64,000 nucleotides of DNA, taken from NCBI GenBank assembly GCA_001880285.1, contig CP016269.1:2738501-2802500 (forward strand), written 5' to 3'. Positions 18,009-47,199 of the stretch are shown piece by piece. The stretch is from Flavobacteriaceae bacterium UJ101. GTDB lineage: Bacteria; Bacteroidota; Bacteroidia; Flavobacteriales; UJ101. The notes beneath the pieces were generated by a model. The model saw only the letters and a list, made by a program, of their open reading frames with translations. It did not search any database and was not told the origin of the DNA. Position 1 is the stretch's first letter; each line of letters begins with the position of its first letter. The translations under genes were made by a program, and so were the position numbers.

Positions 18009-20354
18009 TTAAACTTTTTCAATTTTTACAGCACACTTTTTATAATCTGGCTCTTTTGAAATAGGACAAAAGGCATCAAGTGTTACATCATTGATTAACA
18101 TGTTTTCATCAAAGAATGGTACAAATACTTGTCCTTTAGTAGGAATACCACGACCGTTTATTGAAGCAGGTAAAGTCATTGAACCTCTTCGTGAAGTAAC
18201 TTTTATAGGTTCTCCTTCAACAATTCCTAATTCTTTAGCATCTGATGGATGTATTTCTACATAAGCATTAGGTACTGCTCTATGTAAAACAGGAATTCTT
18301 CTTGTCATAGATCCTGTGTGCCAGTGTTCAATAACACGTCCAGTATCTAACCAGAAAGGATATTCTTGATCAGGAGATTCTGCTGGAGCTTCATAAGGTC
18401 TTTGCCAAATAATCGCTCTTCCATCTTTTTTCCCATAAAAATCAAAGTCTTTCCCGTTGCTACAAGCTGGATCATATTTAGCATTGTAACGCCAGTGAGT
18501 TGATTTTCCTCCAGCGGGGTCATTTTTATCTTCCACAAAAGGCCAAATAACACCTGACTCACGTTTTAAAACTTCTAAAGGAGCCATATTGTGTTTTTTC
18601 CCAGCATGGAATTGTCTATATTCATTATAAAGTTCTTCGTAATGGTTTTCTTTTGAGTACGGGAAAAGATCTCCATATCCCATACGTTTTGCTACTTCAA
18701 TGAACATCCAAGCATCAGATGTAGCATCACCAGGAGCATCAACCATTTTTTGCCAATATTGAGTTCTTCTTTCAGAATTTCCATACATACCATTTTTTTC
18801 AATATGCCATGCTGATGGTAAAATTACATCAGCAACATCAGTGGTTGGAGTAGGGAATACATCAGACACGACAATAAAACGTCCATCTTTTTTAGCCCCA
18901 GCTCTGAATCGACGAAGATTAGGTAAAGAAACTAATGGATTAGTAGCCTGTATCCACATAAACTTAATATCTCCACGGTCTAATGCTCGGAACATTTCCG
19001 TAGCATGATAAGTAGGTTTAGCTGGGATTCTTTCTACAGGAACTTTCCATATTTTAGCAGCCATTTCTCTATCATGTTCGTTTGTTACAACACCATGAGG
19101 TAATTTATGAGTAAAAGTACCTACTTCACGAGCAGTACCACAAGCACTTGGTTGTCCTGTTAATGAGAAAGGACTGTTCCCTGGAGAAGAAATTTTACCA
19201 GTTAATAAGTGAATATTATAAATAAGGTTATTCATCCAAGTTCCTCGAGTATGTTGGTTTACACCCATACACCAGAAAGAAATAACCTTTTTATTAGGAT
19301 TCCCGTATAGAGAAGCCATATATTTAATATCTTTTACAGAAACACCTGATAATTTGGATACTTTTTCAGGAGTATAATCTTCTAAGAACTTCTTGTAATC
19401 TTCAAATGAAATAGGTTTTGGCTCATCTTTAAATTTAAAATGATCTTCTGTACCGTAACCAATATTAGTTTTTCCTTTAAGGAAATTACAGTGTTCTTCA
19501 ACAAATTGATTATTTACCCAACCGTTTTTAATAATTTCATAAGCGATTGCATTTGCTACAGCTAAATCGGTTTGAGGATTAAACATAATTGATTTATCAG
19601 AAGCTGCACTAGAGCGAGTCTTTCGAGTTGCAAAATCAATTATAGTTAAATTTCGTTTTTGTTTTTGATCTAATAATCTTGAGAATAATACAGGGTGCAT
19701 TTCAGCCATATTATTTCCCCAAGTAATTACTACGTCAGCATGATCCATATCTTCATAACATCCCATTGGTTCATCTAAACCAAAAGATGATAGAAAACCA
19801 GTAACGGCACTGGCCATACATAAACGAGCATTACAGTCTAAGTTGTTAGAACCAATCGCTCCTTTCATTAATTTTGATGCAGCATATCCTTCTGGAATAG
19901 TAGATTGCCCTGAAGTAAACATGGCAACAGAATCTTTTCCATGTTCTTCCATGGTTCCCTTCATTTTAGAAGCTACTAAATCTAAAGCTTCTTCTAATGG
20001 TGTTTCAACCATTACACCATTTTTCCTAACTAAAGCCTTTTTTAAACGATCTTTGGCATTGATACACATAATTTGGTGATATCCTTTAACACAAAGTAAT
20101 CCTTTATTTACTTCACAATTAGGATCCCCTTTAACTCCTACTGCTTTTCCATTTTGTGTTCCTACTAAAATTCCACAACCTGTTCCGCAAAATCTACACG
20201 GACCTTTCGTCCAGTTGATATCGCCTGAAGGTAAATTTGCATCCTGTTCTTCTGCAAATACGATTCCGGGTACAAGAGCCGCTGCCGCAGTCATAGCAGA
20301 CATGACAGCCATTTTCTTTAAAAACTCTCGTCTATTTGTTTTCTTTTCGAACAT
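18009..20354 (-). CDS. napA: Periplasmic nitrate reductase catalytic subunit NapA
   Basis: 781 residues. A Tat signal ([10 protein letters not shown], 6-15) precedes the mature enzyme. The 4Fe-4S cluster ligands are Cys53, Cys56, Cys60 (CRFCGTGCG) and Cys88 ([11 protein letters not shown]). The molybdenum ligand is most likely Cys179 in [10 protein letters not shown]. The C-terminal cofactor-binding domain has [13 protein letters not shown] and a CAVKIEK end. It reduces nitrate to nitrite in the periplasm using a bis-MGD cofactor. It is slightly shorter than proteobacterial NapA (about 830). It is preceded by napD and followed by its cytochrome subunit. Confidence 0.96.
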
Positions 20355-20359
20355 TGTTG

Positions 20360-20605
20360 TTATTGTTTTTCTTTATTTTCCGTTTCAAATCCTGCTACGA
20401 CTGTTAATAAGCGTAGACTTTTTATTGCATAAATTTTATCTTCCAATTCTTTATCTTCCAATTCAGAATGGGTGTCGGTCACTATAATAATGATATCATG
20501 TGATTGTGAAGGGATAATTTCACAGTTTTCTAGTTCATTTAAAGCCATCTCAAGATCCTTTTTTTGATCAGGTTGAGGATGTGCTAAATAACTTTTTATC
20601 GGCAT
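20360..20605 (-). CDS. napD: NapD-like chaperone for NapA export
   Basis: 81 residues. NapD binds the Tat signal of NapA and delays export until the cofactor is inserted. The size and the ferredoxin-like pattern fit: N-terminal strand [13 protein letters not shown], helix [20 protein letters not shown], strand [10 protein letters not shown], helix [19 protein letters not shown]. The last segment resembles the NapD end (I..I..V.GV....V.). First gene of the nap operon, five bases before napA. Sequence alone is weak, but position makes the call good. Confidence 0.8.
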
Positions 20606-20688
20606 GTAATCTTTGATTTAAGTTAATCTCTATTAAATTATATAATGTTGTTTTCTGTTTAAAATTAGATACTAGCTAAGTATAAAAG

Positions 20689-20704
20689 CATGACTAAGAT
20701 CATG
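20689..20704. promoter_or_regulatory. Inverted repeat between napD and moeA
   Basis: CATGA-N6-TCATG, a perfect five-base inverted repeat, in the 266-base divergent region shared by the nap and moeA operons. Together with 20805-20818 it is a candidate regulator site. The regulator is not known; it does not match the FNR consensus TTGAT-N4-ATCAA. Confidence 0.25.
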
Positions 20705-20804
20705 TTTTTGTCAATTTACGATATGAAAACGTGAAAACCAATTTAAAAGCTTATGAATAAAGTGATTATGTGTAATTTTTAATGATTTTAAATAAGTTTA
20801 GAAC

Positions 20805-20818
20805 ATGATTTGAATCAT
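20805..20818. promoter_or_regulatory. Palindrome upstream of moeA
   Basis: ATGATT-TG-AATCAT, a perfect six-base inverted repeat, 25 bases upstream of the moeA -7 element. It is placed where an activator could bind. Confidence 0.3.
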
Positions 20819-20842
20819 TTTTTTTACATTTTTGTTTATCGT

Positions 20843-20850
20843 TATATTTG
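20843..20850 (+). promoter_or_regulatory. -7 element of the molybdenum cofactor operon
   Basis: TATATTTG matches TAnnTTTG and lies 21 bases before the moeA ATG at 20872. No good -33 element is seen, which is compatible with an activator-dependent promoter. Confidence 0.5.
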
Positions 20851-20871
20851 TAGAGGAATAACGTATATGTA

Positions 20872-22059
20872 ATGACAATGATATCAGTAGAAAAAGCTAT
20901 AGATTATATAGAAAATGTTGAGTGTAATCCGCAAGAAGTAAAAGTATCAGTCTCTAGAAAAATAATCGATACTATTTTTGCTGAAGATGTACATTCAACC
21001 TATACATTACCTTTATTTAATCAATCTGCAATGGACGGATATGCTGTTTGTTTTGGAGAAGAATTGCATTTTAGAATTTTAGAAGAAGAGGTAAAGGCTG
21101 GAGATGATAGGATGATTTCTCTAAAAAAAGGTGAAGCAGTTCGGATTTTTACAGGTGCTCCTGTTCCAGATACTGCTGATGCTGTAATTATGCAGGAAAA
21201 AGTAACGATAAAGGAAGGTATGCTTTATGTAGAAGGAGATTATCATAAAGGTCAAAATATTCGTTACAAAGGGGAGGAAATTCAGAAAGGAGATAAAGTA
21301 TTTGAAGCTGGAGAAAAAATTACACCCGCAACAGTTGGTGTTTTAGCTAGTTTAGGAATTTCTGAAGTGAATGTATATAGAAAACCTAAAATAGCAATTA
21401 TTGTCACAGGTAATGAATTATCATCTATTCATAAAGAGCTTGCTTATGGTGAAATATACGATTCTAATACCTATACATTAGGTTCTTTTTTAGAGGAACA
21501 GAGAATTGAACATATACATTATTATCATGTAAAAGATAATTTAGAAGAAACACAAAAAATTATTTCAGAAGCACTGAAAGCACATGATATTGTTTTAATA
21601 ACAGGAGGAGTTTCCGTAGGAGATTATGATTTTGTGAAAGAGTCTCTTGACCATAATGGTGTAGAAGAGGTTTTCTATAAAATTAAACAGAAGCCAGGAA
21701 AACCTTTATTTTTTGGGAAGGTTGAGAATACTTTTGTTTTTGGGCTTCCCGGAAATCCAGCAGCAGCTTTAACTTGTTCATATGTATATGTTTTACCTTT
21801 AATTAAACGTTTCAAAGGACAAGATTCAATTCATTTAAAACGTTTATCAGGAATTGCTGTAAACTCTTATAAAAAGAAAGGGAATCGAGCACATTTTCTA
21901 AAAGCCATTTTTAATGATGGAAAAGTTGAAATATTAGATGGACAAGGTTCAGGAATGATGCATTCATTTGCTAAAAGTAATGCATTAGTTTATATGCCAG
22001 AAAGTAAAATGGAAATAAAGAGAGAAGAGAATGTAGAAAATATTATAATGTTATATTAA
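20872..22059 (+). CDS. moeA: Molybdopterin molybdenumtransferase MoeA
   Basis: 395 residues. MoeA inserts molybdate into adenylylated molybdopterin. Family segments seen: LPLFNQSAMDGYAV (49-62), IFTGAPVPDTADAVIMQE, VGVLASLGISEVNVYRKPKIAIIVTGNEL, YDSNTYTL, ITGGVSVGDYDFVKESL and FGLPGNPAAALTCSYVYV. An ATG six bases in (20878) is an alternative start. First gene of the cofactor operon, divergent from the nap operon. Confidence 0.95.
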   Translation: MTMISVEKAIDYIENVECNPQEVKVSVSRKIIDTIFAEDVHSTYTLPLFNQSAMDGYAVCFGEELHFRILEEEVKAGDDRMISLKKGEAVRIFTGAPVPDTADAVIMQEKVTIKEGMLYVEGDYHKGQNIRYKGEEIQKGDKVFEAGEKITPATVGVLASLGISEVNVYRKPKIAIIVTGNELSSIHKELAYGEIYDSNTYTLGSFLEEQRIEHIHYYHVKDNLEETQKIISEALKAHDIVLITGGVSVGDYDFVKESLDHNGVEEVFYKIKQKPGKPLFFGKVENTFVFGLPGNPAAALTCSYVYVLPLIKRFKGQDSIHLKRLSGIAVNSYKKKGNRAHFLKAIFNDGKVEILDGQGSGMMHSFAKSNALVYMPESKMEIKREENVENIIMLY

Positions 22060-22097
22060 ATTACTGATATATAGTTGTTAAATTATTTTATTTAAAG

Positions 22098-22442
22098 ATG
22101 AAGTTTAAAGTAAAAAGTAGGGTTTGGATAGAAAGTGAAGAAGGTGTTTTCTTGGGAGAGGGAAGAATTCATTTGTTAAAATTAGTTGATGAATTGGGTT
22201 CCATTAGCAAGGCTGCAAAAGAATTAAAAATGTCTTATAAAAAAGCCTGGTTTTTATTAGATTCAATGAATAAACAAGCCCCAATGTTAATTTTAATGAA
22301 AAAAACAGGAGGAAAAAATGGTGGAGGTGCAGAACTAACTAAATATGGAAAAAAAATAATCGATGATTTTGAACAACTTAATACATCTTGTTGGAATTTT
22401 TTAGATGATGAATTTGAAAAAATAGATTTTACAAAATATTAA
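22098..22442 (+). CDS. ModE-type winged helix regulator, DNA-binding domain only
   Basis: 114 residues matching the N-terminal HTH domain of ModE: WIESEEGVFLGEGRIHLLKLVDELGSISKAAKELKMSYKKAW and a later GGKNGGGAELTKYGKKII. The molybdate-binding TOBE domains of full-length ModE are absent. Such short proteins are common beside molybdenum enzymes and may regulate this operon, though molybdate sensing would need another partner. It lies 39 bases after moeA and four before the next gene. Confidence 0.85.
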   Translation: MKFKVKSRVWIESEEGVFLGEGRIHLLKLVDELGSISKAAKELKMSYKKAWFLLDSMNKQAPMLILMKKTGGKNGGGAELTKYGKKIIDDFEQLNTSCWNFLDDEFEKIDFTKY

Positions 22443-22446
22443 AAAT

Positions 22447-23406
22447 ATGGAAGCTTATACAGCTAATTTAAGTGACAATCATCCCATCAAAGTGTATTTT
22501 GAAGAGAGAAAATTGATTGAAGATATTATTGAAGAGTTGGAAAAAACTGAGGTAGAAACAGATTTTCAAAAATATTTTAATCTTTTCAATCAATTGTCAG
22601 AGATTGATAAACGTTTTACTCGAAAAGAAAATCAATTGTTTCCTTACTTAGAAAAATATGGGTGGAACGGGCCAAGTCAAGGAATGTGGTCTTTTCATGA
22701 TAATTTAAGAGATCAGATTAGATTATTAAAACAATTTAATGAAGAAAAAAATATAGAGAAAATAAATCAAAATTTACTTTTCTTAGTTGATGGAATTAAA
22801 CGTTTAATGGTGATAGAAGAATTGAAATTATTTCCTACATCATTAGAATTGCTTGTCCAAGAAGATTGGGATGAAATGGAGAAAGGAGAGGAGGAAATAG
22901 GTTGGATGCATAAAAAAGCTTCTTTAGAAGTTAATAATGAGGCTTATATTCATCCAAGTAAGGATTTTACAAAACGGAATGTATCTTTCTCTACTGAAGA
23001 CACCTTTCACTATGATGAAGGGTATATGACACCTGAACAAGTCAATTTATTATTAAAAACGATGCCTGTTGATTTAACTTATGTAGATGAAAATGATAAA
23101 GTTATCTTCTATAACAGAGGAGAAGAGCGCGTTTTTCCACGAAGTGCGGGTATTATAGGTAGAGAGGTGAGATTTTGTCATCCACCCAAAAGTGTTGGGA
23201 CCGTTTTAAAAATATTAGAAGAATTTAAAAAAGGAACACAAAATACAGCTGATTTCTGGATTCGTTTTAAGGAACGGCTGATTTTAATACGATATTTTGC
23301 TGTTCGAGATGAAAATAAAAAGTATCGAGGTGTTATTGAAATGTCTCAAGATATAACCGATATTCAGAAATTAGAAGGAGAACAAAGATTATTAGATTGG
23401 GAATAA
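22447..23406 (+). CDS. Hemerythrin-HHE and PAS domain protein (DUF438-like)
   Basis: 319 residues. Residues 10-150 form a hemerythrin-like four-helix region (DNHPIKVYFEE with His12, RKENQLFPYLEKYGW with Glu61, WSFHDNLRDQI with His84, EELKLFP with Glu124/125). Residues about 200-310 form a PAS domain with VDLTYVDENDKVIFYN, FCHPPKSVGTVLKILEEF and RYFAVRDENKKYRGVIEMSQDIT. This layout is that of DUF438 proteins. The His usually found four positions before the RKEN block seems to be Arg56, so the metal site may be incomplete. Set inside the cofactor operon; a role in sensing oxygen or nitric oxide is an inference. It overlaps mobA by 10 bases. Confidence 0.8.
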   Translation: MEAYTANLSDNHPIKVYFEERKLIEDIIEELEKTEVETDFQKYFNLFNQLSEIDKRFTRKENQLFPYLEKYGWNGPSQGMWSFHDNLRDQIRLLKQFNEEKNIEKINQNLLFLVDGIKRLMVIEELKLFPTSLELLVQEDWDEMEKGEEEIGWMHKKASLEVNNEAYIHPSKDFTKRNVSFSTEDTFHYDEGYMTPEQVNLLLKTMPVDLTYVDENDKVIFYNRGEERVFPRSAGIIGREVRFCHPPKSVGTVLKILEEFKKGTQNTADFWIRFKERLILIRYFAVRDENKKYRGVIEMSQDITDIQKLEGEQRLLDWE

Positions 23407-23960
23407 CAGCATTCATATTAGCAGGAGGAAAAAGCTCAAGAATGGGAATGAATAAAGGATTATGTGTTTTACATGATGAAAGATTTATTCAATTATTAAT
23501 TAATGAGTTAGAGATTTTATTTAAAGATATGGTTTTAGTTGCTTCTATTGAAGAATATGATGTTTTTGAAATAGAAAAAATAGAAGATATTATACCTGAT
23601 AAAGGACCAATAGGAGGTATTTATACAGCACTAAATAAAAGTGAAACAGAAGATAATATAATTGTAAGCTGTGATATTCCTTTAATTAGTTCAGATGTAT
23701 TAAAATTATTGGTAGAAGATAAATCAAATGCAGATGTAGTTCAATTGGCTACAAAGAGTAAAAACATGCCTTTAATAGCACGTTATAAGAAAAAATTAGA
23801 GCCTTTTTTCTTAGAAAAAATAAAGAATAATGATTTAAAATTGAATAAGGTTTTAAAAGAATTAAATGTTAAAACAATTGTAGTTTCAGAGGAGCAAGAA
23901 AAACAGTTACAAAACATTAATACACCAATAGAATTAAAAAAAATTCAAAATGAAAGTTAA
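23397..23960 (+). CDS. mobA: Molybdenum cofactor guanylyltransferase MobA
   Basis: 187 residues from TTG at 23397 (no ATG available; ATT at 23391 is another option). MobA attaches GMP to Mo-molybdopterin to make the MGD cofactor that NapA and the TorA-like enzyme need. The nucleotide-binding signature ITAFILAGGKSSRMGMNKGL is at the N-terminus, followed by PDKGPIGGIYTAL and VSCDIPLIS, all typical. It overlaps the HHE/PAS gene and the moaD-like gene, so translation is coupled. Confidence 0.93.
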   Translation: MGITAFILAGGKSSRMGMNKGLCVLHDERFIQLLINELEILFKDMVLVASIEEYDVFEIEKIEDIIPDKGPIGGIYTALNKSETEDNIIVSCDIPLISSDVLKLLVEDKSNADVVQLATKSKNMPLIARYKKKLEPFFLEKIKNNDLKLNKVLKELNVKTIVVSEEQEKQLQNINTPIELKKIQNES

Positions 23961-24186
23961 AGTTAAGTATCTAGGATTAATTGTAGATCATACGAAATGT
24001 AAAGAAGAACAGTTTGACTTAAAAACAGCTAGTTTTGAAGAATTGGAAAGTCAATTACGGTCAAAATATACTTTCTTACATGATATATCATACAAAATAA
24101 CCATAAATCATGAATTTGGTAAAAAAGGTATTATGATAAATGAAGAAGATGAAATAGCCATTTTACCCCCTTTTGCAGGAGGATAA
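23950..24186 (+). CDS. moaD: Molybdopterin synthase small subunit MoaD
   Basis: 78 residues, ubiquitin-like sulphur carrier. It starts with VKVKYLGLIVDHTKC and ends in PPFAGG, the di-glycine tail that is adenylylated by MoeB and thiocarboxylated. Overlaps mobA by 11 bases and precedes moeB by 33 bases. Confidence 0.92.
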   Translation: MKVKVKYLGLIVDHTKCKEEQFDLKTASFEELESQLRSKYTFLHDISYKITINHEFGKKGIMINEEDEIAILPPFAGG

Positions 24187-24219
24187 GGATATTATTCAAT
24201 AAACAAATAATTAAAGACA

Positions 24220-25329
24220 ATGGATAAGGAACGATACAGTAGACATATTAAATTATCTGAAATAGGAATAGAAGGGCAACAAAAATTACTTGAAGCAAAA
24301 GTTTTGGTTATAGGAGCTGGAGGTTTGGGGTGTCCTGTGTTACAGTATTTAGTAGCAGCTGGAGTTGGAACAGTGGGAATAATAGATGATGATGTCGTTG
24401 AAAAGTCCAATTTGCAGCGACAAATTTTGTTTGGAGTATCTGATATTGGTAAAAATAAAGCACGAGCAGTAAAAAATCGTTTGAATAATTTAAATCCTGA
24501 TGTACAAATTGAAGCTATTCCAGAACGTTTAAGTTCTAAAAATGCTTTAAAATTATTTGAAGATTATGATATTATTGTCGATGGTACCGATAATTTTTCC
24601 ACTCGATATATGGTAAATGATGCCTGTATCTTAGCTAATAAACCACTTGTTTCTGGAGCTATTTATAAATTTGAAGGACAAGTAGCTGTTTTAAATTATA
24701 AAGGATCAGCAAGCTACCGTTGTTTATTCCCTAAATTACCTAAACAAGATTTAATTCCTAGTTGTAATGAAATAGGAGTATTGGGTGTGTTACCAGGTAT
24801 TATAGGAACATTGCAAGCAAATGAAGTATTAAAAATGATTCTAGGTTTAGAAAATATATTAAAAGGACAGTTATTAGTATATTCTGCTTTGAAAAATGAG
24901 ATGAATGTGTTTCATATTGCTCGAAATGAATCTGAAATTCAACAAGTAAAGGAGAAAAAAGATTTTTTTGAAACAACAGATTATGAAGTATTATGCGGAG
25001 TGAAAGATGAATCAGTTGAAGAAATAACAGTAGATGAATTTTTAAATAATATAGATAAAAAATTAGTTCAAATTATCGATGTTCGTGAGAAAGAAGAATT
25101 GGAATTAGATCCTATAGCTTTGGATTTTTCAATTCAACATATTCCATTAGGAAAAATACAAGATTCATTAGAATTAGTAGATAAAGAGAAAAAGAAAATA
25201 ATCTTTTGTCAAAAAGGAATGAGAAGTTTAAAAGCGGTTAAAATTTTGAAAGAACATAAAATTGATCATAGTGTAAGCTTAAAAGGTGGAGCAAGTGAAT
25301 TGTTTAAAATGATAATAGAAAAAGTATGA
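24220..25329 (+). CDS. moeB: MoeB-type adenylyltransferase fused to a rhodanese domain
   Basis: 369 residues. The N-terminal E1-like domain (1-245) has RYSRHIKLSEIG, the ATP loop GAGGLGCPVLQYL, DDDVVEKSNLQRQILF and DGTDNFSTRYMVND. The C-terminal rhodanese domain (about 270-369) has IIDVREKEELE and active-site CQKGMRS. The protein activates the MoaD C-terminus and probably supplies the sulphur itself. The zinc-binding CxxC pairs of E. coli MoeB are not complete (only YRCLFP and PSCNEIG remain), as is common in HesA/MoeB fusions. Overlaps moaE by four bases (ATGA). Confidence 0.93.
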   Translation: MDKERYSRHIKLSEIGIEGQQKLLEAKVLVIGAGGLGCPVLQYLVAAGVGTVGIIDDDVVEKSNLQRQILFGVSDIGKNKARAVKNRLNNLNPDVQIEAIPERLSSKNALKLFEDYDIIVDGTDNFSTRYMVNDACILANKPLVSGAIYKFEGQVAVLNYKGSASYRCLFPKLPKQDLIPSCNEIGVLGVLPGIIGTLQANEVLKMILGLENILKGQLLVYSALKNEMNVFHIARNESEIQQVKEKKDFFETTDYEVLCGVKDESVEEITVDEFLNNIDKKLVQIIDVREKEELELDPIALDFSIQHIPLGKIQDSLELVDKEKKKIIFCQKGMRSLKAVKILKEHKIDHSVSLKGGASELFKMIIEKV

Positions 25330-25766
25330 CGAAAAAAATAAAAAATGTCTTTGTAGAAGGTCCTATTTCTCCAGAAAAAATAGCACAATCTATCGCAAAT
25401 CATCAAGTAAAAACTAATATTGGAGCTCATAATATTTTTTTAGGGCAAGTTAGAGCTGATGTAATAGAAGGAAAAGAAGTTAAAGCTATAGAGTATTCGG
25501 CATATGAAGAAATGGCTTTAAAAGAGTTTCATAAAATTCGAGAAGCAGCTTTTGAACAGTTTGATTTAACATGTATGCATATTTACCATAGTTTAGGTGT
25601 GGTAAAAGCAGGTGAAATATGTCTTTTTGTATTTGTATCATCACCAAGAAGAAAAGAAGTTTTTAAGGCTTTAGAATTTGTAGTAGAAGAAATCAAAGCT
25701 AATGTACCTGTTTTTGGTAAAGAACTTTTTGAAGATGATTCTTATCAATGGAAGGAAAATCATTAA
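25326..25766 (+). CDS. moaE: Molybdopterin synthase catalytic subunit MoaE
   Basis: 146 residues. MoaE converts cPMP to molybdopterin with thiocarboxylated MoaD. Signatures: GAHNIFLGQVRADV, AIEYSAYEEMALKEF, HSLGVVKAGEICLFVFVSSPRRKEVFKALEFVVEEIKANVPVFGKE. The last block carries the conserved Lys and Arg residues. Start overlaps the moeB stop. Confidence 0.95.
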   Translation: MTKKIKNVFVEGPISPEKIAQSIANHQVKTNIGAHNIFLGQVRADVIEGKEVKAIEYSAYEEMALKEFHKIREAAFEQFDLTCMHIYHSLGVVKAGEICLFVFVSSPRRKEVFKALEFVVEEIKANVPVFGKELFEDDSYQWKENH

Positions 25767-25878
25767 ATTAATTAAGAGTTAAAAATCAAGAATGTAGATA
25801 TTAGAATAAAAATAATAATTATAGACATGAAAGATTGAGTCAAATTATTAATATCCAACATACTAAATGCACTAAAAA

Positions 25879-26793
25879 ATGGTTGATATAACACATAAAT
25901 CCAATACACTTCGAATTGCAACAGCTCAAGCTGTAGTAAAAGTAAGTAAGCAAGAGACGATAGAAGCTATTCAAAATGATACAGTTCCAAAGGGAAATGT
26001 TTTTGCAATGTCAAAAGCAGTGGGATTACTAGCAGTGAAAAAAACACCTGATATTTTAGCAGACTGCCATCCTTTACCTATCGAGTTTACAGGGATTGAT
26101 TACGAAATTAATGATTTGGAAATAATTGTTAAAGTAACTATTAAAACTATTTATAAAACAGGAGTAGAGGTTGAGGCAATGCATGGGGCAAGTGCTGTTG
26201 CTTTGAATATGTACGATATGCTTAAACCTATTGATAAGGGAATAGAGATTCAAAATATTAAATTGTTAAAGAAAAAAGGAGGGAAGTCAGATTTTAAAGA
26301 TAAATTTAGTAAAGAATTAACCGCACGTGTTATTGTTTGCTCTGATTCAATTTCAGCAGGAAAAAAAGAAGACAAAGCAGGAAAGGCTATTATAAAAAAA
26401 TTAGAAGAATGTAATGTAGCTATTACAGATTATGTTATCATTCCAGATGAACCTTTTGATATAGAACAAAAAATAGAAAAATCACTTGAAGAAGAAACCG
26501 ATTTAGTTATTTTTACAGGAGGTACAGGTTTATCAAAACGTGATGTAACACCCGAAACGATCATTCCTTTACTCGATACTCGAATTCCTGGAATCGAAGA
26601 AGCCATTCGAAGTTATGGGCAAGATCGAACACCGTATTCTATGCTCTCACGAAGTGTAGTTGGCTTAAAAAATAATAGTCTAATTTTGGCTTTGCCAGGA
26701 TCCACAAAAGGTGCAGCAGAATCAATGGATGCTATTTTTCCATTTGTAATGCATATATTTAATGTTATAAAAGGAGTACAACATTATACATAA
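25879..26793 (+). CDS. moaCB: Bifunctional MoaC-MoaB/Mog fusion
   Basis: 304 residues. Residues 1-140 match MoaC (cyclic pyranopterin monophosphate synthase): MVDITHKSNTLRIATA, ADCHPLPIEFTGID and AMHGASAVALNMYDMLK. Residues 158-304 match MoaB/MogA (molybdopterin adenylyltransferase): ARVIVCSDSISAGKKEDKAG, DLVIFTGGTGLSKRDVTPE, PGIEEAIRSYGQ, MLSRSVVGLKNNSLILALPGS. One protein thus covers an early and a late step. Such fusions are known in Bacteroidota. It follows a 112-base gap after moaE. Confidence 0.93.
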   Translation: MVDITHKSNTLRIATAQAVVKVSKQETIEAIQNDTVPKGNVFAMSKAVGLLAVKKTPDILADCHPLPIEFTGIDYEINDLEIIVKVTIKTIYKTGVEVEAMHGASAVALNMYDMLKPIDKGIEIQNIKLLKKKGGKSDFKDKFSKELTARVIVCSDSISAGKKEDKAGKAIIKKLEECNVAITDYVIIPDEPFDIEQKIEKSLEEETDLVIFTGGTGLSKRDVTPETIIPLLDTRIPGIEEAIRSYGQDRTPYSMLSRSVVGLKNNSLILALPGSTKGAAESMDAIFPFVMHIFNVIKGVQHYT

Positions 26794-26859
26794 CTTGGAA
26801 GTCAAAAAACAGGAATGAAAAGTAACAATTACTACTAAACAATAATCAAAAAATAGTTT

Positions 26860-27855
26860 ATTATCAATTTAAAAGATTCACATAACCGAAATCACAATTA
26901 TTTAAGAATTTCTCTTACAGATCGGTGTAATTTGAGGTGTACTTATTGTATGCCTAATGAAAAAATCCAATTCACACCTAGAGAAAATCAAATGAATGCA
27001 GAAGAACTGCTGGCTATTACCCAAGAATTTGTGAAATCGGGTGTTCAGAAAGTTCGTTTAACTGGAGGAGAACCTTTGATTAGAAAAGATATTACAACCA
27101 TTTTAAAAGGTTTATCAGCATTACCCATTCAATTGGCTATGACAACCAATGGTGTTTTATTAGGGGAGTATTTTGATTTGTTAGAAGAGGTTAATCTTAA
27201 AGTCATTAATATTAGTTTAGACTCTCTAAATAAAGAAAAATTTAATCAAATTACGAAGCGTGATTATTTTGATCAAGTTTGGGAAAATATTCATGCAGCA
27301 ATTGAAAAAGGGTTTAAAGTAAAGCTTAATACCGTTTTGATCAAAGGGTTTAATGACGATGAAATTTTAGATTTAGTAGAGTTATCGTTAAAATATAAAT
27401 TGCAAGTTCGTTTTATAGAGTTCATGCCTTTTGATGGAAATCGTTGGGATTTTTCTAAAATGGTATCGGAAGAAGAGATTTTACGAAAAGTATATCAAAA
27501 ATATCCAGAGAAAACAATAGAAATATTACCTGTAAAAAAACATGCAACTGCTAGGAATTTTAAATTGCCAAATGGTTTAGGAAATTTTGGAATAATAAGT
27601 TCTGTAACGAATCCTTTTTGTGATTCATGTAATCGTTTGCGTTTAACTTCTGATGGGAAAATGAAAAACTGTTTATTTTCAAATGACGAAGCAGATCTTT
27701 TGACGCTTTTTCGACAAGGAAAATCAATTGGTGAAGCAGTTAATTTGTTGATCATGAAGAAATATAAAGTTCGAGCAGGAATGAATGAATTAGAAGATTT
27801 CAAAACCTCAGATCAACACGGATTGAATCGAAGTATGGTACGTATTGGAGGGTAG
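26860..27855 (+). CDS. moaA: GTP 3',8-cyclase MoaA with a non-AUG start
   Basis: 331 residues if begun at ATT (26860). MoaA is the radical SAM enzyme making the first pterin intermediate from GTP. The N-terminal cluster is CNLRCTYC, preceded by the family's NYLRISLTDR; a C-terminal second cluster is CDSCNRLRL with a third Cys in KMKNCLFS; the protein ends in GG. The first Cys lies before any ATG, GTG or TTG in this frame: the only conventional start (TTG 26932) would remove it. A stop codon (TAG 26854) limits the start to 26857 or later, leaving ATT 26860 or ATC 26863. Confidence 0.88.
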   Translation: MINLKDSHNRNHNYLRISLTDRCNLRCTYCMPNEKIQFTPRENQMNAEELLAITQEFVKSGVQKVRLTGGEPLIRKDITTILKGLSALPIQLAMTTNGVLLGEYFDLLEEVNLKVINISLDSLNKEKFNQITKRDYFDQVWENIHAAIEKGFKVKLNTVLIKGFNDDEILDLVELSLKYKLQVRFIEFMPFDGNRWDFSKMVSEEEILRKVYQKYPEKTIEILPVKKHATARNFKLPNGLGNFGIISSVTNPFCDSCNRLRLTSDGKMKNCLFSNDEADLLTLFRQGKSIGEAVNLLIMKKYKVRAGMNELEDFKTSDQHGLNRSMVRIGG

Positions 27856-27919
27856 AGGTTCGTTATTGCTTTGTTATATTAAATTTTATAACGAGTAATT
27901 TAATTTTTGTTTACATTTT

Positions 27920-28534
27920 TCACTCTTCATTTCCTATAAAATGTCTTGCAGGATATTTTTGTTTAAAAGCAGGGTTATGAGGATTGTGACATTGAACACA
28001 GGTTTTAGAGATTCTTGGCTCAGCCCAAAAACTAATTCTTTTCCCATGAGCACCTCCTTTCCAATCTTCAAATTGATGCGGATGACATTGTCCACACAAA
28101 CGATAACTCTCATTAAAATCAATGGATGTTTGATTCATATTATGTAAAACATCCATATTATGATCTGTATGACATGTAGTACATTCCATTATAAGAGTAT
28201 TGGAATGTTGTAGTTTAATTTCTTGATGCGTTCTTTTGTCATAAGTAGCTGAAGCTGTTTGAAGCTTTTGTATACTTTCCGTATGACATTTAGAGCATTT
28301 ATATCGTGTGATTTGATCTTTTCTTTTAGGAATATAAAAATTACGATGTGAAGCTTTAACAAGCATCAAATTTGTTGTATCAATATCAAAGTTTAGTACT
28401 ACTTCCTTTTCGTGAGACTTTAACGATCTATTTTTAATTTTTGTATAATTTGAAATAGGATGTTTTGAAAAATCACAAGAACTCAGAAATAATAAGCAAA
28501 ATACGAATACAGACAACCTCCAAAATAATTTCAT
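27920..28534 (-). CDS. Tetraheme c-type cytochrome lipoprotein of the TMAO-type module
   Basis: 204 residues from ATG 28534. A TTG at 28555 is rejected because it lies inside the likely -7 element. Lipoprotein signal LLFLSSC with Cys20. Four CxxCH motifs: CSKCH (80), CTTCH (118), CGQCH (147) and CVQCH (179). It is clearly paralogous to the cytochrome at 16687-17304, sharing PHQFEDWKGGAHGKR-like and CHNPHNPAFKQ blocks. Divergent from the outer-membrane protein and reductase genes that follow, it probably feeds electrons to the latter's heme domain. Confidence 0.85.
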   Translation of the reverse strand: MKLFWRLSVFVFCLLFLSSCDFSKHPISNYTKIKNRSLKSHEKEVVLNFDIDTTNLMLVKASHRNFYIPKRKDQITRYKCSKCHTESIQKLQTASATYDKRTHQEIKLQHSNTLIMECTTCHTDHNMDVLHNMNQTSIDFNESYRLCGQCHPHQFEDWKGGAHGKRISFWAEPRISKTCVQCHNPHNPAFKQKYPARHFIGNEE

Positions 28535-28552
28535 TTTAACTGTAATTTTCAG

Positions 28553-28560
28553 CAAATATA
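28553..28560 (-). promoter_or_regulatory. -7 element for the tetraheme lipoprotein gene
   Basis: Minus strand TATATTTG (28560-28553), a TAnnTTTG match 19 bases before the ATG at 28534. Confidence 0.5.
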
Positions 28561-28710
28561 TTTTTTAGCAATAGATTATAAAGATGATAAATAACATGTT
28601 TTAAGTTAATTATAGATTAAAAGCTTATTAAAGTAGCTGTTTCAAATGAATTGTAATTTTATGGATTTCATAAATGATATTAGTCATGTTTCAAATAGAA
28701 TAGATAATAA

Positions 28711-28718
28711 TAGATTTG
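28711..28718 (+). promoter_or_regulatory. -7 element for the barrel/reductase operon
   Basis: TAGATTTG matches TAnnTTTG, 27 bases before the ATG at 28745. It supports that start over the upstream ATG at 28646. Confidence 0.5.
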
Positions 28719-28744
28719 TAGGTCAATTTGAAAAATTAAAAGAC

Positions 28745-29875
28745 ATGAAAAATTACAGCATCAGTAGTATTGTTGTCTTTTTTATTTGTAGTACAATACT
28801 ATATAGCCAAGATAAACCACAAGTTAGATTAGAAGGAGCTTTGAGATTTAATTATAACAATTCTTCATGGAAAGAAGCACAGAAAAAAAGAGGAGGAGAC
28901 ATTAGTTATGATATGTTTGCTATAAGCCCAAAAGTAGCTTATAAAGGATTTATATTGGATATTAAATATCGAATTTATGAAGATCAATCAGGAGGAGGAA
29001 TGCTTCGTCAAGGATTTATAGGATATGATTTAAATGAAAAAAATCAATTACAATTTGGTTTAACACGTGTTCCATTTGGTATAGAACCCTACAATTCACA
29101 TAGTTATTTTTTGGGAATGGGTTATTATTTGGGGCTTGAAGATGATTATGATGTTGGTTTGAAATATAAAAGAGAAGGAGAAAAGTTTGATTATCAGTTG
29201 GCGTTTTTTAAAAATTCTGATTTAGCATCAGAAATTGGTGGAGATGGAGTAGAATCAATGCGACGCTATTCTTATGATGTGGGAGGAAGAAACCGGGAAA
29301 CAAATCAATTTAATGGGAAATTGGTATACAAAACGGAAGGGGAATTTAAGCATAGAATAGGAGCTTCTTTTATGTATGGAGGCTTATATAATGTTGATAC
29401 AAAAGAAATGGGAGATCATTTTGCTTTAGCAGGACATTATGAGCTTGATTATAAACGGTTTAACTTAAAAACACAAGTTTCCAGATTTGAAAAAAATCCT
29501 AAAAATATAGAAGGTGAAAGCCGTGATATTGTTGAGTTAATTGCCTACAATGCAGCTTATGAAGTAGCGGCAAAAGGTACATTATATACAGTAGGAGCTT
29601 CTTATGATTTCCCAATAAATAGAAAAGCTCTATCACAAATACAAGTGTATAATGATTTTGCCTATTTAGATAAAGATAAAAGTGAATTTGAAAGTTCTAT
29701 CACTAATAAATTGGGAATTCGGTTACAATCAGGAGGTATTTATACCTATGTAGAATATGTAGCTGCAAAAAATCAACCTTGGTTTGGGCCAGAATGGACA
29801 AAAGCTTTTTCAGAAGGAGATCCTAATCATGATTGGGAAGGAAGGTTTAATATTAATGTAGGGTACTATTTTTAA
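28745..29875 (+). CDS. Outer-membrane beta-barrel (porin-like) protein
   Basis: 376 residues from ATG 28745, which begins a proper signal peptide (MKNYSISSIVVFFICSTILYSQ). The body has alternating polar/hydrophobic strands and ends in FNINVGYYF, a typical outer-membrane C-terminal aromatic. Segments such as GFILDIKYRIYEDQ, QLQFGLTRVPFG and YDVGLKYKREGEKFDY resemble porins of the OprO/P-like type. It precedes the TMAO-type reductase gene by 24 bases, so it may let the reductase's substrate in. The substrate is unknown. Confidence 0.7.
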   Translation: MKNYSISSIVVFFICSTILYSQDKPQVRLEGALRFNYNNSSWKEAQKKRGGDISYDMFAISPKVAYKGFILDIKYRIYEDQSGGGMLRQGFIGYDLNEKNQLQFGLTRVPFGIEPYNSHSYFLGMGYYLGLEDDYDVGLKYKREGEKFDYQLAFFKNSDLASEIGGDGVESMRRYSYDVGGRNRETNQFNGKLVYKTEGEFKHRIGASFMYGGLYNVDTKEMGDHFALAGHYELDYKRFNLKTQVSRFEKNPKNIEGESRDIVELIAYNAAYEVAAKGTLYTVGASYDFPINRKALSQIQVYNDFAYLDKDKSEFESSITNKLGIRLQSGGIYTYVEYVAAKNQPWFGPEWTKAFSEGDPNHDWEGRFNINVGYYF

Positions 29876-29899
29876 TAAATAAAAATATAAAAATTAAAA

Positions 29900-32551
29900 A
29901 TGAATAGAAGGGATTTTTTAGAATTATCATCAATTGCAGCTACAGGTGTCGCTTTAGGAGGGTTAACTTTGTTTAGTTGTGATCATCAATTTGATAATGA
30001 AACCGTTTTGATTCCTCATGCATGCCATTGGGGACCTTTTAAAGCCGTTGTTAAAAATGGTACCTTAATAGGTGTACAACCACTCAAAGAGTTCGATGAA
30101 ATGCCTACCCAAATGCTTACAAAAGGTGTTTTAAGTAGGGTTTATGATAAAACAAGGATCAAGTATCCTATGGTTAGAAGATCTTATTTAGAAGGTTTAA
30201 GAACAGGAAATACAAAACCGGAATTAAGAGGAAAAGATTCTTTTGTACGTTTAACATGGGACGAAGCACTGGCATTAACTTCCAATGCGATAGTAGATGT
30301 TATGGAAAAATATGGAAATGGTTCTTTATTTAGTAGCTCATATGGAGGATGGTCCCATGCAGGAATTTTACGCCCTCATGTTTTACAAGGACGTTTTTTT
30401 GGATTGATAGGAGGACATTCTATTACAAAAGGAGATTATTCAGGAGGAGCTTCTCAAATTAGTTTACCACACATCATTGGAGATATGGAAGTCTATTCTC
30501 CTCAAACTGCATGGAAAGTACTAGAAAGAAACACCGAGTTAGTTGTTTTAATAGGTTGTGATCCCTGGAAAAATAGTCGGGTAGAATATCGTGTGGCTGA
30601 TCATCAAATGTATCCTATTTGGAAAAAATTAAAAGAAAAAGGAGTTCAATTTGTTTCCATAAATCCACATTATACCAATACCGATGAGGTTTTAGATGCC
30701 GAATGGATAAAAATAATTCCCAATACTGATACTGCTTTATTTACAGCCATGTCATATTATATATATCAAACAGGAATGTATGATAAAGCCTATTTAAATA
30801 AATATACTGTAGGATTCGATCGATATTTAGCTTATTTATTAGGAGAAGAAGGAGATGATATCCCAAAAACACCTGAGTGGGCAGCTAAAATAACGGGAAT
30901 TTCTGCAAAGAAAATTATAGAATTAGCTGAGTTATGTGCATCTAAGAGGACCCAATTTGCTCCTGGTTGGTCAGTTCAAAGAGCACAACATGGTGAAATG
31001 ACCCATTGGTCTATGATTAATTTTGCCGCAATGTTAGGTAAAATTGGTAAAAGAGGAGAAGGTATTGGATTTAGTTTCCATTATGGAAATGGAGGTACAT
31101 TACAGTCAGGTAAAACCGTTCCAGGAGGGTTGCCACAAGGAAGAAACCCTGTTAAAACAAAATGTCCAGCTTCCCGAATATCAGAAATGTTGCTAAATCC
31201 AGGTAAAAAATACATGCATAATGGTCATGAGTCTGTTTTTCCAAATGCAAAATTGGTGTATAATTCTGGAAATAATTTTATGTCGCATCAGCAAGACACT
31301 AATGAATTGATTAGAGCTTTAAATCAACAAGTTAAAACCATTATTTGTCAAGACCCATGGTGGTGTGCATCAGCCCGTTTTGCTGATATTGTACTTCCTG
31401 CAACCAGTACATTAGAACGTGATGGATTAGCCTCTGGAGGAACATATAGTAATGACCGAATATATGCAATGCGTCAAGTAATTGAACCAGTAGGAGAAAG
31501 TTTAAACGATTTTGAAATTTTTAGAAGATTAGCAGCCATATTTGGAGTAGAAGAGAAATTTACAGGAGGAAAAACAAATTTTCAAATTTTACAAGAAGCA
31601 TATGAAAATTCTGATGGGAAGAAAGTTATGCCGTTTAATGAATTTTGGGAAAAAGGAATTGTACGTTTAGAAGTACCTGAAGAGGCGAAAAATTGGACAC
31701 GACATGGTGCTTTTTATGAAAATCCTATGTTAAATCCATTGCATACTAATTCTGGAAAAATAGAATTATATTCTAGTGTTATTGATGGTTTTAAAGCAAA
31801 AGGATGCCCACCAATGCCAAAATTTATTGAGCCTATGGAATATTTAGGGAATGCAAAAAAAGGTCAGTTACACGTTTTGGGACCACATCCTAATATGCGT
31901 TTGCATTCACAAATGGCTAATGCTGATATTAGAAAAATAGAAAACATTCAAGGTCGACAACACATTTTAATTAATACAGAAGATGCTAAAGAAAGAGGTA
32001 TTTCAAACGGAGATTTAGTTGAAGTATATAATAAAAGAGGTACACTTTTAGCAGGTGCAAAAGTAACGGATATTATTATGAAAGGTGTTTTAAGTCTTGA
32101 AGAAGGAAATTGGATTCAATTAGATTCAAAAGGGCGTTGTAATAGTGGTAGTATTAATATGCTAACACCAAGTATTGCAAGTAGTGATTTGAGTCAAGCA
32201 ACTAGTGCCAATACATGTTTGGCCTATCTTAAAAAATGTACAGATCCTGAATCCGAAAATAAAGCTTTTGAACCTCCTGAAATTGAAGAAAACTATCAAT
32301 ATAAAATGATTTATTTAGGATTGGCACCAAGAATAGAAACATTGAAAGAACAATTTGCCTCTGCTAATATGACACCAGGAGAAGCTTTATTTTATAATAA
32401 ATGTTCTATTTGTCACGCACCTCATGAGCCAAAAGAATTAACTTTAAAACAATGGGAGGGTGTTATGCAAGGGATGGCTCCAAGAGCAGGTTTAAAAGGA
32501 GATGAGAAAAAATTAGTAATGGATTTTCTAGCAGAAAATGCAAAAAAATAA
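29900..32551 (+). CDS. TorA/DorA-family reductase with fused C-terminal c-type heme domain
   Basis: 883 residues. Tat-type signal RRDFLEL with a lipobox-like LFSC (Cys27). No N-terminal 4Fe-4S motif, as in the DMSO/TMAO/biotin sulfoxide reductase group, but the conserved HWG (43-45). The molybdenum ligand is most likely Ser181 in TKGDYSGGAS. Cofactor-binding segments include IGCDPWKNS, PGWSVQRAQHGEM and LGPHPNMRLHSQ. After about residue 815 a monoheme domain follows: CSICH at 835-839, a likely axial Met859 in GMAPRAGL. This tail resembles the C-terminal domain of the pentaheme TorC. Substrate (TMAO, DMSO, other S- or N-oxide) is not decided. Confidence 0.88.
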   Translation: MNRRDFLELSSIAATGVALGGLTLFSCDHQFDNETVLIPHACHWGPFKAVVKNGTLIGVQPLKEFDEMPTQMLTKGVLSRVYDKTRIKYPMVRRSYLEGLRTGNTKPELRGKDSFVRLTWDEALALTSNAIVDVMEKYGNGSLFSSSYGGWSHAGILRPHVLQGRFFGLIGGHSITKGDYSGGASQISLPHIIGDMEVYSPQTAWKVLERNTELVVLIGCDPWKNSRVEYRVADHQMYPIWKKLKEKGVQFVSINPHYTNTDEVLDAEWIKIIPNTDTALFTAMSYYIYQTGMYDKAYLNKYTVGFDRYLAYLLGEEGDDIPKTPEWAAKITGISAKKIIELAELCASKRTQFAPGWSVQRAQHGEMTHWSMINFAAMLGKIGKRGEGIGFSFHYGNGGTLQSGKTVPGGLPQGRNPVKTKCPASRISEMLLNPGKKYMHNGHESVFPNAKLVYNSGNNFMSHQQDTNELIRALNQQVKTIICQDPWWCASARFADIVLPATSTLERDGLASGGTYSNDRIYAMRQVIEPVGESLNDFEIFRRLAAIFGVEEKFTGGKTNFQILQEAYENSDGKKVMPFNEFWEKGIVRLEVPEEAKNWTRHGAFYENPMLNPLHTNSGKIELYSSVIDGFKAKGCPPMPKFIEPMEYLGNAKKGQLHVLGPHPNMRLHSQMANADIRKIENIQGRQHILINTEDAKERGISNGDLVEVYNKRGTLLAGAKVTDIIMKGVLSLEEGNWIQLDSKGRCNSGSINMLTPSIASSDLSQATSANTCLAYLKKCTDPESENKAFEPPEIEENYQYKMIYLGLAPRIETLKEQFASANMTPGEALFYNKCSICHAPHEPKELTLKQWEGVMQGMAPRAGLKGDEKKLVMDFLAENAKK

Positions 32552-46474: not shown

Positions 46475-46588
46475 CTATTTAGTTGGTTTGATTCTTTCCA
46501 TTAACTTTTGTTTAATATCTTCATGAATTGCTTCTGTTAAATTTTCTTCTTTTTTAACTTCTAAATACGGTACGAGAAGTTTATCCCA
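46475..46588 (-). pseudogene. C-terminal fragment of an unidentified gene
   Basis: On the minus strand an open frame reads WDKLLVPYLEVKKEEN... and ends MERIKPTK before a stop at 46475-46477. No start exists. Codon use looks real and the segment is flanked by the tail-gene fragment, so it is a gene end left by a deletion. Its parent is unknown. Confidence 0.45.
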
Positions 46589-46608
46589 TTATTACCGATA
46601 TTACTGTT

Positions 46609-47199
46609 TTGGGTTACAATGCTACAGTGGTTTGGTCCATTGCTGATGGATCACCAAATAATTCCACTTCAACTTGGCAATTGGAATATTCAGTTAATGG
46701 CGGTGCTTGGCGTGTCAATCATGGTGGTGGTTCTCCAAGAACGATCAGTATAGAAAGCTTAGAAACAGGTAAAGTACGTTTTCGTGTAAAACGGGTTTCA
46801 ACACCTGTGACAGGTTATTCCAATGTATATGAGATCGATTATACAACTCCAAAAGCCTTTTTGAATTGTTCTATAGTGGATTTGTTGGATAGTGATCCGT
46901 ATGGAGATGTAGCACCTGAATCAGGAACTGTATGTGTGACAGGTGGTGTCTATACAGGGAATGTGTATGTAGAACAACAATACGAAAATGCGATTGCTGA
47001 GGGAGTGCAATTGTATATTGATCAAACGCATGAACTAACGGCTACAAATGTACGCCTGTACGGAAATGAGAACATGAAAAAACGTGTTCCAAATGGTGCA
47101 AAGTTGGTACGTTTTTACAATGCTCAAGCTGATACAGTGTGGGATGTGGATGCAAGTACGGGAAAAATAAAGGGTGCAGCATCGAGACAATGTAGATAA
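46609..47199 (+). pseudogene. Phage tail/fibre-like protein lacking its N-terminus
   Basis: The frame is open from about 46561 and the first usable codon is TTG 46609; sequence before it (VYPIITDITVLGYNATVVW) reads as part of the same protein, so the start is lost. It contains a fibronectin-type-III-like pattern: ATVVWSIADGSPNNSTSTWQLEYSVNG, then VRFRVKRVSTPVTGYSNVYEIDY. The C-terminus has TNVRLYGNENMKKRVPNGAKLVRFYNAQ. Base composition is less AT-rich than neighbours. Likely tail or receptor-binding protein remnant. Confidence 0.6.

Follow-up and report, generated by a model that had tools for sequence, protein, structure and literature searches.

The window, a 64,000-nucleotide stretch of the genome of Flavobacteriaceae bacterium UJ101 (3.07 Mb, one contig, completeness 99.95%; placed in Flavobacteriales by its homology matches), carries a molybdenum-cofactor gene cluster that contains moaA, the gene for GTP 3',8-cyclase (Table 1). 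The protein read from position 26860 matches the family profile TIGR02666 at 358.4 bits (cut-off 284.05) over profile positions 1-336 of 336, from residue 4; it is the single TIGR02666 match in the genome and has no internal stops. The features that we take to mark the MoaA family, i.e., an N-terminal CxxxCxxC, a second cluster motif at the C-terminus and a GG end, are present as CNLRCTYC (at 26926), FCDSC...NC and a final IGG. The moaC-moaB fusion lies on the same strand, with 66 bases between its stop and the ATT at 26860. Downstream, the BisC/TorA-like reductase has a CxxCH motif at its C-terminus, and its gene lies near that of the multihaem cytochrome and the cofactor cluster. An Rfam search of positions 20000-32000 (E up to 1) detected no riboswitch or other element.

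Table 1. Features of the moaA region, in window positions.
Feature	Position	Strand	Remarks
moeA-like gene	20872		open frame
mobA-like gene	23397		TTG start, open frame
moaD/ThiS-like gene	23950		open frame
moeB-like gene	24220		open frame
moaE-like gene	25326		open frame
moaC-moaB fusion	25879..26793	+	5' of moaA; NF002947, 392.6 bits (cut-off 285)
ATG mini-ORF	26815..26838	+	leader; 7 codons, same frame as moaA, closed by TAA
In-frame TAG	26854..26856	+	upstream bound of possible start
moaA open frame	26857..27855	+	codon after TAG to own stop TAG; TIGR02666
Candidate start ATT	26860..26862	+	codon -22 from first Cys; one base from ATG
Candidate start ATC	26863..26865	+	codon -21 from first Cys; one base from ATG
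Radical-SAM CxxxCxxC	26926..26949	+	TGT 26926, TGT 26938, TGT 26947
First canonical start-like codon, TTG	26932..26934	+	between first and second Cys of CxxxCxxC
Multihaem cytochrome gene	27920-28555	minus	3' of moaA
Porin-like gene			3' of moaA; just below Pfam cut-off
BisC/TorA-like S/N-oxide reductase	29900-32551		below curated NCBIfam cut-offs

The N-terminus of MoaA and its missing canonical start codon

From 26854, the codons read TAG TTT ATT ATC AAT TTA AAA GAT TCA CAT AAC CGA AAT CAC and then AAT TAT TTA AGA ATT TCT CTT ACA GAT CGG TGT (26926) AAT TTG (26932). The first-pass annotation had claimed that ATG, GTG and TTG are all absent from the codons that separate the TAG from the first Cys of the radical-SAM motif, and this codon reading bears it out. 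As in genes of the infC kind, the stretch from the upstream stop to the conserved N-terminus holds no canonical start, and the sole codons one base from ATG in this gap are ATT 26860 and ATC 26863. The TTG at 26932 was rejected as a start, since it would delete the first cluster Cys and lies in a poor context (-2.49 on the scale described below, under 96% of 282 ATG genes). Gene prediction that allows the three canonical codons only would cut MoaA short at this TTG, inside the catalytic motif.

Having 25 open codons ahead of the first canonical start is in itself unremarkable in this genome, where the 95th percentile is 22 codons and the 99th is 33.5 (349 ORFs); the case for a missing start therefore comes from homology within the open extension and not from its length. 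The N-terminal family match, said in the first-pass annotation to run from 26860, is real and begins at 26869 (query residue 4). Alignments with relatives likewise begin at residue 4 in 144 of 159, at residue 2 or 3 in 12 and at residue 5 or 6 in three, and the solved MoaA structure 1tv7 aligns from residue 4 over the same residues; codons 26860-26868 (I I N) make up the start-site region. Mean identity to the 159 relatives is 63% across residues 4-22 and 53% across the remainder of the protein; 54 of these relatives were read near the start only. D6, R10, Y14 and R16 are invariant in all 159 distinct relatives, as are the three Cys of CxxxCxxC. Given this homology and these invariant residues ahead of the Cys, translation must start after the TAG and by about 26869, upstream of TTG 26932.

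Start codons in relatives and elsewhere in the genome

We read moaA start regions at 110 loci (80 from genome_contigs, 29 from an order search, and the UJ101 gene) and at 54 other places from the order search, which at E<=1e-60 had found a match in 84 of 395 genomes. These 164 places comprised 160 distinct start regions, 159 of relatives plus that of the window. Every one of the 159 relatives carries a canonical codon at least 17 codons before the Cys (GTG or TTG without ATG in seven of them); the window gene is the only exception among the 160, and its odd start is thus conserved in none. The first-pass annotation had proposed close relatives as one check of the start, and those found are too distant to settle it for UJ101: identity reaches 57% for the best full-length relative among the best 80 of 538 genome_contigs matches, outside which near records may fall, so none can tell what a near strain has. 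Searches of genomes at genus and family level returned UJ101 itself as the sole genome, with no congeneric or same-species sequence, and a scan of viral_contigs for such sequence found no relative.

Several relatives (e.g., L057, L097, L153, L162) have ATG at codon -22; at codon -21 the sole canonical codon seen was a GTG, that of L186, which also has ATG at -20. ATT 26860 fits the start position of the relatives better and ATC 26863 has the better context, and we favour neither. Two relatives have unusual start regions of their own. In L150 (G009:C42:29538-30038), ATT occupies the very position of the ATG in related genes, but a TTG precedes it by one codon and makes the start ambiguous; this moaA is a possible second case of a near-cognate or shifted start. 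In L107 (G317), ACG replaces the ATG of the sister locus L104 at codons -30 and -26, and the ATG at -19 alone remains.

Start context was scored with base frequencies at -20 to -1 of 282 ATG-started ORFs from 464 kb of the genome. The profile is A-rich, most strongly at -13 to -10, and shows a further preference for A at -3. It agrees with the features A-3, A-6 and A-12/A-13 in Flavobacterium; PMC8710568 reports that these help initiation in F. johnsoniae and that Bacteroidia generally lack Shine-Dalgarno (SD) sequences. Mean scores were 2.20 bits for ATG genes versus -2.31 for random positions. ATC 26863, which has an A at -3 and a run of A from -15 to -10, scored 4.07 bits and exceeded 75% of the 282 ATG genes; ATT 26860 scored 3.05 bits, above 61%. 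The neighbouring upstream TTT scored 2.76, so context places the start region and not the exact codon. Scores as high as those of ATT and ATC occur at about 1-2% of random genome positions, and because the leader is AT-rich a good score is weak evidence. Folding of the leader RNA was no better than that of shuffled sequences and revealed no special structure, and no extended SD comparable to those of Staphylococcus aureus infC, cvfC1 and ccpN was seen at the moaA leader.

We surveyed 400 kb plus the window, i.e., 15% of the genome, for other ORFs that lack a start. Among 349 ORFs of at least 120 codons, 47, moaA included, have an open extension of at least 14 codons; 20 of the 46 others were searched in NCBIfam (E up to 1e-15) and 26 in Pfam (E up to 1e-5). 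Matches were obtained for 37 of the 46, and the best match never began more than 2 residues ahead of the first canonical start, a close test of the start only in the approximately 17 of 37 in which it begins no more than 12 residues from that codon. The moaA family match begins 21 codons ahead of its first canonical codon. Lower-ranked subfamily models extended upstream of the start by 7 residues for acetolactate synthase (L203:17577-19301) and 3 for RecG (L198:2800-4983). A coding-potential scan for start-lacking genes was without power, as the moaA extension itself scored negative. As far as this 15% sample shows, near-cognate starts are not common in UJ101. Elsewhere in the window, the open frame 46558-47199 had no match in Pfam, and its earliest canonical codon, a TTG, comes 17 codons in.

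The tRNA that we take to be the initiator from the features of this class (in L234) is ordinary-looking, with a CAT anticodon; an altered initiator tRNA was thus rejected. The infC gene of UJ101 (L111, G000:C1:2967303-2967806, minus strand) also lacks a canonical start: ATA-GCA-ATT-AGA lies at its conserved N-terminus, with ATA where homologues start. An infC search gave a match in 58 of 60 genomes; of the 30 Flavobacteriales loci read (L111 and L112-L140, UJ101 included), 28 have no canonical start at the N-terminus, with ATA in 14, ATC in 11 and CTG in three, while in the two exceptions, L125 and L127, an ATG occurs further in. Automatic annotation may misplace the IF3 start in Flavobacteriales. 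With infC lacking a canonical start and the initiator tRNA looking ordinary, near-cognate initiation in UJ101 is plausible. The infC pattern fits published rare starts for IF3 autoregulation: two sources describe IF3 repression of infC ATT/ATC and sigR GTC starts (PMC5472188) and rare starts in S. aureus infC (AUA), cvfC1 (AUU) and ccpN (AUA), which an extended SD is predicted to direct (PMC13009471).

Explanations for the absent canonical start

The best reading is that moaA is intact and starts by near-cognate initiation at AUU or AUC, which we consider probable, if far from assured. The first-pass annotation had held that the gene must start at ATT or ATC unless the sequence is in error. 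This either/or survives and leans towards the near-cognate start, but "must" is too strong, since a one-base error or a start truly lost in this strain may also explain the sequence. Against near-cognate initiation stands the canonical start of every relative read.

That same uniformity, with canonical starts in all 159 relatives, favours a one-base assembly error near 26853-26865 in a real gene with a normal start. Six consecutive A adjoin the stretch, and by eye single-base differences here could make an in-frame canonical codon, as is true of almost any AT-rich leader. An error by frame slip is countered by the other two frames, neither of which has an upstream canonical start that stays open into 26857; a frameshift from them was rejected on this ground. 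The completeness and single contig of the assembly speak against an error-rich sequence, as do long enzymes of the sample such as IMP dehydrogenase, PEP carboxykinase and RecG, whose family matches are nearly full-length. We regard an assembly error as unlikely, although it and a start loss confined to this strain are the chief rivals of the near-cognate reading.

Still less likely is that the sequence is true and the moaA start was lost recently in this strain, leaving the gene silent or nearly so. A lone case among 160 would suit such a loss, as would the weakness of near-cognate codons as starts. However, the moaA frame is otherwise open with a family match to its end, the neighbouring moeA-, mobA-, moaD-, moeB-, moaE-like and moaCB frames are open, and a BisC/TorA-like molybdoenzyme, though below curated cut-offs, follows at 29900. 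This enzyme is a likely client of MoaA, and together with the open cofactor neighbours it indicates that MoaA is probably needed.

The close linkage of moaCB and moaA raises termination-reinitiation, from moaCB or from the mini-ORF at 26815, which would relax selection on the start. The two genes share a strand across the 66-base gap, and they overlap or lie at most 16 bases apart in 79 of the 105 loci measured. However, gaps of 39-121 bases occur in the other 26, so the gap in UJ101 is ordinary. The mini-ORF ATG has a poor context (-3.23, lower than 99% of 282 ATG genes) and is probably not an efficient start. Reinitiation would also still require ATT or ATC as the start, and we judge it improbable.

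Stops appear to be read normally in UJ101. TAA ends 276 and TAG 42 of the 349 sampled ORFs, and TAG also ends moaA itself, marking it as an ordinary stop; no tRNA with a UAA or UAG anticodon was among those found (an initial scan covered 150 of the 302 candidates). Stop reassignment was rejected on these grounds, and readthrough or recoding of TAA/TAG from ATG 26815 or moaCB, although both share the frame of moaA, would have to pass two or three consecutive such stops and is scarcely credible. Among the tRNA-like sequences, ARAGORN called a pair as tRNA-SeC (tca) (L223:1870-1947 and L224:1127-1206), each beside a tRNA-Val(tac) with which it shares its 3' end; in Rfam one reached 28.5 bits against 29 and the other was not listed. 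The pair is probably a degenerate, duplicated tRNA-Val derivative.

Proposed near-cognate initiation and known systems

Were moaA to start at AUU (26860) or AUC (26863), the ordinary initiator tRNA would read the codon with a third-position mismatch, and the A-rich, unstructured leader would position the ribosome in a lineage that makes little use of SD pairing. We infer initiation at these codons, its weakness and its sensitivity to IF3 from these features and from analogy. If infC and sigR are a guide, such initiation would be weak and IF3 would reduce it further, so that little MoaA would be made; as raised IF3 inhibits non-canonical starts in E. coli (PMC2268962), moaA expression would be low. 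Repression of this start by IF3 is plausible only, given that UJ101 infC also lacks a canonical start. It is a speculative and rather doubtful extension that the AUU/AUC start throttles the first step of cofactor synthesis, with MoaA tracking an IF3 level itself set by an AUA start, in a lineage low in SD sequences.

Starts outside ATG, GTG and TTG are rarely documented beyond infC. No title on moaA starts was among those that surfaced in a literature search limited to titles, and the accessible part of PMC11445065 holds nothing on AUU or AUC. If the near-cognate start is true, its use by a metabolic enzyme gene in a group with little SD would suggest that such starts need no strong SD.

The moaA gene resembles infC (AUU/AUC/AUA): each is intact, lacks a canonical start and carries a near-cognate codon at its conserved N-terminus, and infC of UJ101 (ATA) is itself an example. 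In contrast, the odd infC start is common to 28 of 30 loci in the order and autoregulatory where studied, whereas that of moaA was seen in UJ101 only. The pcnB gene of E. coli is likewise an enzyme gene with an AUU start, in an organism group that uses SD. Like moaA, sigR of Streptomyces is a non-IF3 gene with a start outside ATG/GTG/TTG that automatic annotation misplaces; its GTC codon differs in being conserved in Streptomyces, served by an extensive ribosome-binding site, repressed by IF3 and shown experimentally (PMC5472188). S. aureus cvfC1 (AUU) and ccpN (AUA) are also ordinary genes with near-cognate codons, but theirs are conserved, have an extended SD and were mapped by Ribo-Ret, according to PMC13009471. 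If real, the moaA start would join the infC/sigR kind of near-cognate starts and, unlike the studied cases, would operate with little help from SD pairing in its lineage.
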